Assembly (NCBI RefSeq): GCF_000743705.1
Contig: NZ_JQEZ01000004.1
Coordinates: 212,149 to 276,148 of the forward strand
Direction: 5' to 3'
Source of the DNA: Ruegeria halocynthiae
GTDB taxonomy: Bacteria; Pseudomonadota; Alphaproteobacteria; Rhodobacterales; Rhodobacteraceae
DNA: 64,000 bases
Shown piece after piece: positions 13,908-49,443 of this stretch (position 1 is the first letter of the stretch; each line of letters begins with the position of its first letter). The position numbers were made by a program, and so were the translations under genes. The notes below the pieces were generated by a model that had not been told where the DNA came from, did not search any database, and saw only the letters and a program-made list of their open reading frames with translations.

Positions 13908-14042
13908 GTCAGATGTCACCTTTCGATGTTCTCAGCGGGCTAAGACACCGTCGGGCCCCGGCGCCTTGCACATTAGAGACGACACGTCCGGATCAATTCG
14001 TGGCCACCGTCCCGAATGGCGGCCTCCCGATCCGTGAACCGC

Positions 14043-47089: not shown

Positions 47090-47187
47090 CCCGAGAGGTT
47101 GGCGCGGGCGAGCGCCTCGCCAACCTGGTCAGATCCGGAAGGAAGCAGCCACAACGAGCCCCGCTTGGGTCGATGTCCAACCTCTCA
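47090..47187 (+). ncRNA. ffs: 4.5S signal recognition particle RNA
   Basis: The apical domain is unmistakable: CTGGTCAGATCCGG, AAGGAAGCAGCC (47125-47150), the Ffh-binding tetraloop and symmetric loop of SRP RNA. The outer stem is GAGAGGTTGG (47093-47102) with CCAACCTCTC (47177-47186), which defines the ends within a few bases. It lies downstream of cpdB; ffs near dnaX is a familiar neighbourhood. Confidence 0.93.
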
Positions 47188-47230
47188 CTTCTTCACTCCG
47201 TAATGTATCAGCGCCAAGCGAATGATCCGG

Positions 47231-48088
47231 CTATGCGATCAGCCGTGGCCAGACGGCGGCGTTACGGCGGGCGAAGGCGCCGATGTGACCCACCCCGGAC
47301 AGATCGAACTCAGCAGGAGACAGCAGGATTCGGCGCGCATCTGGCCCATACAGATCAGCCAACCTCCAGACCGCGTTTGGCGGAACCACCTGATCGTCTT
47401 CGAAAGTGATCAGGTCTACGGGTGTATCGGTTTGCGCCCAGCGTGCTTTGGGCAGCGCGCCTCCGACTTCGGGCAGGTAGTTTCGCGGCGCGGTGCACCA
47501 CCTGCGCCATTGCCAGTAGACCGACGCAGGCAAATCCGCACCAAACCCCAGCGCGCGGCCCGGCAGATACCCCAGGGCTTTCACGATCAATGGCACGTGC
47601 CCGTACCAGAACAGACCTGCCAGCGCCCGATAGGGCCAGGGGTGATCCGACACTGTAACAGCGCCAGAGCAAACGCAGATCATGCGGTCTATCTGGGCGA
47701 TATCAGGCTGAAGCGGCCCCAGCATCCCGCCGATGGAATGACCAATGCTCCATTGTTGCGCATCAGGAAACCGCCGCCGCATCTCGGCCCGGGCCGCAGG
47801 CATATCCGTCAGCGCCCAATCCGCCATCCTGACCCGCGACGCCTTTAAGGGGCCGCGCAACGAATGGCCAAAGTCGGTGTAATCATATGTCAGGCAAGCC
47901 ATGCCCTGCTCGGCCGCAAGCCAGCGGGCGAAGTGCTGATAATACTCGCGCGGCACGCCGGTTGCGCTGTGGATGACCACGGCGACCCGGGGTGCGGACA
48001 CCGGCACATACAGCCGCGCCGACAAGCGGCCCGCGCCTGAGGGAAACTGATAATCCTCGGTCAATACGGTCTGTGACGTGTCCAGCAT
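47231..48088 (-). CDS. Alpha/beta-fold hydrolase
   Basis: A 285-residue cytosolic hydrolase. The nucleophile elbow reads GHSIGGM (G-x-S-x-G) near residue 116, the oxyanion area is VIHSATGVPREYY, the late aspartate is in LITFEDDQVVPP and the histidine in SGVGHIGAFA, completing a catalytic triad. Substrate unknown. Divergent from a cobalamin riboswitch across a gap of about 145 bases; no cobalamin-related function is suggested by its sequence. Confidence 0.85.
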   Translation of the reverse strand: MLDTSQTVLTEDYQFPSGAGRLSARLYVPVSAPRVAVVIHSATGVPREYYQHFARWLAAEQGMACLTYDYTDFGHSLRGPLKASRVRMADWALTDMPAARAEMRRRFPDAQQWSIGHSIGGMLGPLQPDIAQIDRMICVCSGAVTVSDHPWPYRALAGLFWYGHVPLIVKALGYLPGRALGFGADLPASVYWQWRRWCTAPRNYLPEVGGALPKARWAQTDTPVDLITFEDDQVVPPNAVWRLADLYGPDARRILLSPAEFDLSGVGHIGAFARRNAAVWPRLIA

Positions 48089-48239
48089 ATTGCGCTCTCA
48101 TCTTTCTGAACCGCTTGGTTCACCTTCCTCAATCCGCCCTGTTTGCCCCGGCAAGTCAAGACCGGCCGGACATGACCAAACGTCCGCTTTGCCGTGCCAA
48201 CTCTGGCTTGACTCGGGGCGCTCGCACCCGCTAGCGATA

Positions 48240-48433
48240 CTGTGATGGTTCTCGTCCCCGGTTTCGGGGCGAGATGAAAAGGGAACACGGTGCGGTCCTG
48301 CCCGGCAATGCCGGAACGGACCTAGGCCGCGACTGCCCCCGCAACTGTAAGCGGTAAGCAATGCCGAAACACCACTGGCCGAAAGGCCGGGAAGGTCGGC
48401 AAAGCGATGACCCGCAAGTCAGGAGACCTGCCA
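48240..48433 (+). promoter_or_regulatory. Cobalamin (adenosylcobalamin-type) riboswitch
   Basis: All conserved parts can be read: GATGAAAAGGGAACACGG (48273-48290), the CCCCCGCAACTGTAAGCGG box (48336-48354), CCACTGGCC (48372-48380), GGGAAGGTCGGC and the terminal GATGACCCGCAAGTCAGGAGACC (48406-48428). The expression platform may be translational: CCTC (48511-48514) can pair with GAGG (48520-48523) and cover the Shine-Dalgarno of the next gene. Confidence 0.95.
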
Positions 48434-48530
48434 TCGAACGAAAACCGAAACTCGGGCGGGGTGTCCGGGCAGGTCGTCAGCGTGCTGCCTTACCTGAACA
48501 ATGCCCCGTTCCTCGCGCGGAGGGCGCATT

Positions 48531-48938
48531 ATGATATGGAAGACAAAGACGCATCAATTCACCGCAACTGTGTGCCAACGCACCGGCAAGACATGCCCGG
48601 CCCTGGCGCGGCTAGCACGAGCGATGACCGTCGCGATGAAAACCGCTGCACCGACCACAACCCCGGAATTTCAGGTCGAAGGCAGCAGTGATCTGACCTA
48701 TTGCCCGGAAGGGTGCACCGCGCGTTTTTGGGCGCAAAAAGATCAGATCAGGGTCTTTTGCGGCACTTGCGCGGATACCCCGACAAAAACGCTGGATGGG
48801 TATGCTGACATGATGTTTGGCACCTCTTTTACACCGCTGCCAGCGGGCGTGTTGACCGACCTGCCCTGCGCAATGCTTGAGGTCTCATCTCTGGTGCCGC
48901 GCCCGGCTGCGCCGATATCCGAGCATTTATCGGCCTGA
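48531..48938 (+). CDS. Small Cys-rich protein under cobalamin riboswitch control
   Basis: I do not recognise this 135-residue protein. The start at 48531 (MIWKTKTHQFTATVCQ) follows a GGAGGG site by about 7 bases. Seven cysteines are at about residues 15, 22, 58, 62, 77, 80 and 113, as C-x6-C, C-x3-C and C-x2-C pairs, suggesting a metal or Fe-S site. The layout (TVCQRTGKTC...VEGSSDLTYCPEGC...IRVFCG) faintly recalls the DUF1636/thioredoxin-like ferredoxins next to cobalamin genes, but I would not name it. It ends 13 bases before a convergent phosphatase. Confidence 0.7.
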   Translation: MIWKTKTHQFTATVCQRTGKTCPALARLARAMTVAMKTAAPTTTPEFQVEGSSDLTYCPEGCTARFWAQKDQIRVFCGTCADTPTKTLDGYADMMFGTSFTPLPAGVLTDLPCAMLEVSSLVPRPAAPISEHLSA

Positions 48939-48951
48939 CCCAGCCCTGCAC

Positions 48952-49443
48952 TCAACGCCGGGCTGCCTGTGCGGCCCATTCCAACTGACCGTCTGTCTCA
49001 ACCGCGCAGGGTCGTGCCACGCGCAGGCGTTTCAGCGCGGCCTCTGGCATTTCCCCATGCTCCACCATGATGCGCAGGACAATCATCCCGGACCGCCCAC
49101 ACCCGCCCCGGCAATGCACCAGCACCCGCCCCCCCTGGGCCAGGACCCGGCGGGCCGCCACGCAGACGTCCCCCCACAGGGCATCAATCATGGGTGATGG
49201 CGCGCCGAAATCCGCAACCGGCAGGTGGTGCCAGCGGATGTTGTGCGCACGCAGGTCGTCGCCTAACCCAGCGGCCCCTTGTTGCAGCATCTCGGCCTCG
49301 GTGGTCATAGAGATCACCAGATCCGGCCGCCAATCGCGAATGACCTTTAAATCCTGCGGATAGCTGTCGTCGCGCCCCGGTAAAGCAGACAGGGCAACGG
49401 TGCCATTCCCCACTTGCACAGTATGAATTTCGAACAGGCTCAC
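48952..49443 (-). CDS. Protein tyrosine/dual-specificity phosphatase
   Basis: A 163-residue phosphatase. I start it at the GTG at 49443 (MSLFEIHTVQ), preceded by AGGGAGGG about 7 bases upstream; a longer open frame exists but lies antisense to dnaX. The catalytic loop is VHCRGGCGRSG (HC-x5-R-S), and ADFGAP provides the general-acid aspartate. Substrate is unknown. It is divergent from dnaX and convergent with the riboswitch gene. Confidence 0.85.
   Translation of the reverse strand: MSLFEIHTVQVGNGTVALSALPGRDDSYPQDLKVIRDWRPDLVISMTTEAEMLQQGAAGLGDDLRAHNIRWHHLPVADFGAPSPMIDALWGDVCVAARRVLAQGGRVLVHCRGGCGRSGMIVLRIMVEHGEMPEAALKRLRVARPCAVETDGQLEWAAQAARR

Follow-up and report, generated by a model that had tools for sequence, protein, structure and literature searches.

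A Cobalamin Riboswitch-Preceded, Stand-Alone Relative of DUF1636 Proteins With a Different Cysteine Pattern in Ruegeria halocynthiae

The P0001 Locus and Its Riboswitch

The P0001 gene lies on the forward strand of a 64,000-nucleotide stretch of the Ruegeria halocynthiae genome (hereafter the window), from the ATG at 48531 to the stop codon at 48936–48938 (48531–48938), and encodes a protein of 135 amino acids. It stands alone because the next downstream gene is convergent on the other strand, encoding a dual-specificity/tyrosine-phosphatase-like protein at 48952–49443 on the reverse strand (Pfam PTP families; start codon assumed). On the other side, a divergent alpha/beta hydrolase gene occupies 47231–48088 on the reverse strand (Pfam), and both neighbors are outside the unit. 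An earlier sequence-only reading had described a lone gene of 135 residues and seven cysteines following a riboswitch, and this description was borne out, with cysteines at positions 15, 22, 58, 62, 77, 80, and 113; the forward-strand codons of C15, C22, C58, and C62 are at 48573–48575, 48594–48596, 48702–48704, and 48714–48716, respectively. The window also holds a Rhodo-rpoB leader RNA at 13940–14033 (reverse strand) and a small SRP RNA at 47092–47190 (forward strand).

Upstream of P0001, a cobalamin riboswitch aptamer (RF00174) extends over 48229–48449 of the forward strand, matching the full model (1–189) with 128.1 bits (E 7.5e-32) against a gathering score of 31.5 bits, which places it in the family. 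The Rfam scan found one cobalamin riboswitch in the window, and the switch proposed before the gene is therefore confirmed as a cobalamin riboswitch with the whole aptamer. The presence of this riboswitch supports the role in B12 economy that had been proposed along with it.

Distribution and Conservation of the Gene

P0001 was present in all 25 same-genus genomes, its own genome included, and was absent from all 16 other genomes of the class that were searched. Inside the bacterial family, a profile of 35 relatives (alignment A1, which omits L009 as nearly identical to L007) matched 41 of 295 genomes representing 294 genera, and the P0001 type was defined by a gap in score, with 12 genomes at 113 bits or more and the remaining matches at 82 bits or less. 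The 17 named records that matched comprised 15 from Ruegeria, one from an uncultured Ruegeria, and one from Rhodobacteraceae bacterium KLH11.

A cobalamin riboswitch was located directly upstream of the gene in 36/36 scanned loci of the P0001 type, namely the window, L002–L021 (20/20), L022–L025 (4/4), and L027–L037 (11/11), and in all 18 more distant DUF1636-like loci scanned (8/8 and 10/10). The 17 named loci were used for synteny and lie outside the Rfam scan, which also omitted 12 low-scoring profile matches without a locus (11 genomes). Whether homologues are likewise riboswitch-preceded had been raised as a check on the proposed role, with riboswitch-less homologues as the finding that would speak against it: every one of the 54 loci scanned (36 of the P0001 type and 18 more distant) carried the switch, and a search among them for homologues without one returned none. 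Genome G014 also gave a second, weak match (L026, E 0.008) that has no riboswitch and was discarded as spurious.

The chromosomal place of the gene is also conserved, with the phosphatase gene and dnaX nearby downstream in 17/17 named loci and nearby in nine of ten P0001-type loci of other genera, L176 being the exception. The median dN/dS of the P0001 frame was 0.16, calculated over the first 97 codons in 164 of 190 pairs from 20 of the 26 same-genus sequences (26 pairs without usable dS were dropped), and the frame is therefore under purifying selection.

The RNA Between Aptamer and Start Codon

Several forward-strand elements that could connect the aptamer with translation were recognized. 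The aptamer contains CCCCGC at 48337–48342, which we take to be L5 in the usual riboswitch naming; it is complementary to GCGGGG at 48456–48461 and pairs with it in the minimum-energy folds of 48229–48560 and 48229–48660. After the aptamer, the RNAalifold consensus of 35 loci gave a hairpin at 48452–48468 (UCGGGC-GGGGU-GUCCGG), presumably P13/L13, which folding of the window sequence by itself did not favor. A pyrimidine-rich stretch at 48501–48511 is able to pair with 48454–48464 in the proposed ligand-free state (fold of 48450–48560), and the stretch 48503–48512 is able instead to cover the Shine-Dalgarno sequence in the proposed bound state (folds of four other stretches). The Shine-Dalgarno sequence itself (48519–48523) lies in the loop of a possible hairpin, GCGC-GGAGG-GCGC, at 48515–48527.

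When 48450–48560 was folded alone, 48454–48464 paired with 48501–48511 and the Shine-Dalgarno sequence was open in the small hairpin (unpaired about 0.9). When the aptamer was included, 48456–48461 paired with CCCCGC at 48337–48342, and 48503–48512 covered the Shine-Dalgarno sequence (unpaired at most 0.15). This covering was obtained in four of the five stretches of window sequence folded, and the Shine-Dalgarno hairpin, a minority fold, in one of the five. Both proposed states are thus predicted minimum-energy folds, and inclusion of the upstream sequence selects between them. Across 48 loci, the two pairings exceeded shuffles by a modest margin: the mean duplex energy of the first pairing was -17.0 kcal/mol compared with -14.6 kcal/mol for shuffled partners, and that of the second was -14.2 compared with -13.2 kcal/mol, a slight gain only. 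RNAalifold returned the first pairing for the 25 same-genus sequences and the hairpin at 48452–48468 for all 35. Of the platform first proposed from the sequence, in which CCTC at 48511–48514 would pair with GAGG to hide the Shine-Dalgarno sequence, the masking by upstream pyrimidines is retained as a prediction; the exact CCTC/GAGG register was rejected because this CCTC is not conserved across loci.

The whole aptamer is shared with RF00174, and what distinguishes this leader is the GCGC-GGAGG-GCGC element that comes after it, of which we know of no description. Its 13 bases are identical in 36/36 loci of the P0001 type, and a form of it occurs in 12 of the 18 more distant loci. In total, 48 of 55 loci carry it, scored with the pattern GGAGG[GA]CG, the exceptions being L051, L093–L097, and L099; since this pattern already fixes the 3' half of pairs one to three, those pairs say little. 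The fourth pair was G-C in 40 loci, U-A in seven, and unpaired in one, and the seven U-A cases, all in the distant set, may represent one event. In the whole genome, the pattern occurs once within reach of a start codon.

From these folds, a switching process can be proposed. In the absence of adenosylcobalamin, 48454–48464 would pair with 48501–48511, leaving the Shine-Dalgarno sequence open and P0001 translated. In its presence, the CCCCGC of the aptamer would pair with GCGGGG, and the freed pyrimidine stretch would cover the Shine-Dalgarno sequence, so that translation would stop.

Relationship to DUF1636 and Thioredoxin-Like Ferredoxins

P0001 matched no family of Pfam or NCBIfam at E up to 10 and did not reach the gathering score of DUF1636 (PF07845, 31.6 bits). 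With Pfam, 13 of the 35 relatives gave weak DUF1636 matches of E 1 or less, the lowest value being 0.003, and a chance family, DUF6346, reached E 0.0024 in one relative. Profile comparison with hhalign aligned the 35 relatives with 21 classical DUF1636 proteins at 94.5% (E 8e-8, score 50.1, about 99 columns) and with 16 DUF1636-like proteins, mostly leaders of importer operons, at 99.4% (E 8.9e-22, score 130.5); the maxima of 60 column shuffles per target were 21.9 and 19.9, respectively. By profile comparison, then, P0001 is homologous to DUF1636, and the suggestion of an undescribed gene, taken as one without relatives, is not supported. No publication on the P0001 gene was found among the matches listed in the literature search.

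The two groups have more in common: both are small and B12-linked, the DUF1636 gene in the cob cluster of the same genome is also riboswitch-preceded, and the structure models of both follow the same strand-helix-strand-strand-strand-helix order. P0001 differs in having no Pfam match, in being monocistronic, and in lacking the conserved C-terminal stretch of DUF1636 (invariant G103, R121, and P123 in L051 numbering), which was not seen in alignment A1 and before which the profile alignment stops. Because the defining score, the cysteines, and the C-terminal stretch all fail, we describe the P0001 group as a sister subfamily rather than a member of DUF1636. A tree was built from 59 proteins, among them 18 of the 35 A1 rows, with L035 cut to 110 residues. 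In it, the P0001 type formed one clade (99/99), next to L038 and then L039 with L045, and these together were split from the remaining proteins with 100/100, the root being for drawing only.

Using remote homology, a published study (PMC4520260) connected DUF1636 with thioredoxin-like [2Fe-2S] ferredoxins. Consistent with this, the classical DUF1636 protein of the own genome has 48% identity to PDB 9jn8, the thioredoxin-like ferredoxin ORF378 of Rhodobacter capsulatus. The importer-leader profile matches 9jn8 at 3e-8, and the classical DUF1636 model retrieved 9jn8 in Foldseek, then 1f37 as the third hit (E 3.1e-3). The DUF1636 alignment A3 matched a three-row ferredoxin-domain set at 84% (E 7.6e-6), two rows of which are N-terminal domains of proteins that resemble NuoF by eye, and NuoE at 64% (E 6e-5). 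Neither the P0001 clade nor the importer-leader set matched NuoE in hhalign, and the P0001 profile gave chance-level matches to PDB sequences (best E 0.23). The P0001 structure model (pLDDT 86) had a best Foldseek E of 0.2, with none at E 0.001. The link from P0001 to these ferredoxins (Aquifex 1F37/1M2A, NuoE, and the NuoF-like N-terminal domain) is therefore transitive, running through DUF1636, and by analogy P0001 may work like this thioredoxin-like ferredoxin/DUF1636 group.

Genomic Setting of Other DUF1636-Type Genes

Besides that of P0001, the own genome has three further cobalamin riboswitches, which precede, respectively, P0002 (a short DUF1636-like gene with a Pfam DUF1636 match of E 2.5e-4, below the cut-off) with a BtuFCD-type importer, the DUF1636-cobW-cobN cob cluster, and cbtA. 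DUF1636-type genes are thus attached to two of the three other riboswitch units. A second classical DUF1636 gene (L071:9908-10249) was observed on the opposite strand beside cbtA, preceded by none of the four riboswitches. The name btu for the importer genes comes from the riboswitch and from sequence similarity; the best matches of the ATPase and permease in NCBIfam, BtuC included, are below the curated cut-offs.

The leader of the own btu-like operon (L072:9119-9379, contig C1, minus strand) was seen to be shortened mid-protein and without C-x3-C. Of the 23 same-genus genomes searched, the own genome included, 17 carry a homologue that covers nearly the full length of the G003 leader, and five gave a weaker match or none. 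The idea that P0001 and P0002 are halves of a split protein was dropped, as those 17 genomes hold a near full-length leader plus P0001.

Flanks were taken for ten of the more distant relatives (L177–L186), and seven of these (L178, L180, L181, and L183–L186) precede importer genes similar to the btu-like genes of the own genome. L178 has a second riboswitch between the DUF1636-like gene and the importer genes, L182 is followed by a gene for a DUF6925 protein and by an exbB-like gene, and L177 and L179 stand alone. At L039, riboswitches at 1174–1367 and 1871–2073 flank the DUF1636-like gene before btuF-, btuC-, and btuD-like genes. DUF6925 proteins were noted to recur in B12-linked operons, at L182:5297-6280 beside the exbB-like gene and at L246:12467-13465 beside CbiZ. 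With the importer-operon leaders, which make up most of alignment A4, P0001 shares the riboswitch (18/18) and a close profile match (hhalign 99.4%), and the Shine-Dalgarno element extends to 12/18 of the distant loci. The leaders differ in sitting at other chromosomal places than the P0001 type, and no importer operon was found at the P0001-type loci examined.

Since a number of its relatives head operons for B12-type import, P0001 probably helps the cell to handle scavenged B12. More specifically, we propose that P0001 is a cobalamin-repressed, stand-alone DUF1636 relative that takes part in redox handling of scavenged corrinoid through an Fe-S cluster or metal, a reading that we favor tentatively, at slightly less than an even chance.

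Cysteine Pattern of the P0001 Type

The four cysteines C15, C22, C58, and C62 were conserved in 35/35 proteins of the P0001 type, at a mean column identity of 43%, and C77 and C113 occurred in 32/35 and 31/35. The C-x2-C pair that had been listed among the cysteine pairs was rejected as a metal pair, as C80 occurs in 1/35. The invariance of four cysteines at this level of identity speaks against the view that the fold was kept, the metal site lost, and P0001 left to serve the B12 system by regulation or by binding a partner. That view could draw on the missing conserved DUF1636 C-terminal stretch and on the finding that no Fe-S family matched P0001 directly, and we regard it as very unlikely.

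Cysteine equivalence between the P0001 type and DUF1636 was taken from the hhalign profile alignment. In classical DUF1636, the equivalents of positions 12, 15, 54, and 58 are cysteine in 21/21 proteins (invariant cysteines 15, 18, 55, and 59 in L051 numbering) and that of position 62 in 17/21. In the P0001 type, by comparison, positions 12 and 54 are never cysteine in 35/35, and the DUF1636 cysteine test accordingly failed, the equivalents of C15 and C55 (L051 numbering) being cysteine in none of the 35 relatives. P0001 thus lacks two cysteines that are invariant in classical DUF1636 and has the invariant C22 in addition. Most importer-operon leaders have all six: cysteine was present at positions 12, 15, 22, 54, 58, and 62 in 14, 16, 15, 12, 16, and 16 of 16 proteins, respectively. 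In profile alignments, the positions lost in the P0001 type fall opposite the leading cysteines of the two NuoE pairs. The ligand spacing of thioredoxin-like ferredoxins is about C-x10-12-C-x29-34-C-x3-C. The spacing of P0001 is C-x6-C-x35-C-x3-C, which departs from this pattern.

With two cysteines invariant in classical DUF1636 absent in 35/35, cluster binding may have been lost. The metal site, if there is one, would have changed two of its four positions, which is the most unusual feature of the group as judged from aligned sequences. One conceivable history is that a six-cysteine ancestor resembling the importer leaders gave rise to classical DUF1636, which would have kept positions 12, 15, 54, and 58 (and 62 in 17/21), and to the P0001 clade, which would have kept 15, 22, 58, and 62 and lost the first-ligand position of each NuoE pair. 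The metal site would then have walked along the chain, giving a ferredoxin fold with relocated cluster or metal ligands that serves B12 scavenging specifically and persists even in a genome lacking CobN. We consider this full account possible but somewhat doubtful.

Occurrence of P0001-Type Genes With and Without CobN

CobN was found in 34 of the 36 genomes with a P0001-type gene, so the distribution is compatible with a role in B12 synthesis. Of the two others, G004 has no CobN orthologue, its sole CobN-like match at 1e-20 being a BchH magnesium chelatase, and neither a DUF1636 match nor an importer leader was found in it. It keeps the P0001-type gene with its riboswitch (L016), together with three other strong riboswitches (L246, L247, and L248) and a fifth, weak match of 42.6 bits. 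The strong ones precede a btuB-like/btuF-like/FecCD/ABC/CbiZ operon that also includes DUF6925, gbcA/gbcB-like genes (best matches below cut-offs), and nrdE/nrdF, encoding a class Ib ribonucleotide reductase of which NrdE scored above its cut-off. The riboswitch set of G004 is a B12-economy regulon. G193 had no CobN match at 1e-20 and retains a divergent P0001-type copy (L176). This most divergent copy is followed on the same strand by a gene (L176:3689-6145) that combines DAO and GCV_T domains in the way known from dimethylglycine dehydrogenase, and this neighbor hints at one-carbon metabolism.

These genomes show that a P0001-type gene can outlive CobN, and G004 suggests that its role lies in taking up, salvaging, or using B12, or in coping when there is none. 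Participation in cobalt insertion, for which CobN was the chelatase searched, is weakened by G004 and G193, although 34/36 genomes have CobN. Related to this is the proposal that P0001 is a mononuclear metal binder, holding cobalt or zinc with four thiolates as a metallochaperone or buffer rather than carrying electrons. Both cysteine pairs differ from those of classical DUF1636, the classical DUF1636 gene of the own genome sits before cobW-cobN, and CobN accompanies the gene in nearly all genomes, all of which would suit such a protein. The family is otherwise ferredoxin-like, however, and since G004 keeps the gene without a CobN orthologue, cobalt delivery to CobN cannot be the sole role; we judge a metal binder of this kind to be distinctly unlikely.

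In these genomes, B12-independent enzymes are likewise encoded behind riboswitches, so the switch alone is no proof of uptake, and P0001 might support B12-independent metabolism as a helper of backup enzymes when B12 is short. The class Ib ribonucleotide reductase and gbcA/gbcB-like genes behind the G004 riboswitches are in line with this, as are riboswitches before a Rieske oxygenase and a glutaredoxin in G002 (read by eye) and the DAO/GCV_T gene that follows the G193 relative. Apart from G193, however, its near relatives, as judged from profile and tree, head importer operons, lie before the exbB-like operon, or stand alone; we consider help to backup enzymes unlikely.

Proposed Role of P0001

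Considering the above results, the redox handling of scavenged corrinoid is still the role that we favor for P0001, for which we infer a ligand response, metal or cluster binding, and electron transfer. When adenosylcobalamin is scarce, P0001 would be made along with importer and synthesis genes. The protein would bind an Fe-S cluster or metal through C15, C22, C58, and C62, and it could then reduce the cobalt of corrinoids before adenosylation or reactivation.

A ferredoxin-type fold would suit an electron donor for the reductive reactivation of corrinoid methyltransferases, working with RamA-type activases and serving no import function. For Ruegeria pomeroyi, the recharging of cob(II)alamin has been predicted to depend on RamA together with a DUF1638 protein (PMC12478193), which favors such a donor. 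The word DUF1636 is absent from the main text of that paper, and no ramA or mtg gene was noticed next to P0001, both of which speak against it. We hold it to be rather unlikely that P0001 serves reactivation in place of import.

The exchange of B12 shapes marine communities, and to our knowledge the intracellular reduction of imported corrinoids is poorly assigned in these bacteria. With P0001 as a component that would act on scavenged corrinoid, there is now a conserved, riboswitch-marked candidate, missed by Pfam and NCBIfam, in Ruegeria and in further genera of its family. DUF1636-type proteins are also linked to B12-type import. Furthermore, the natural series of cysteine patterns provides material on how a ferredoxin-type site can move.
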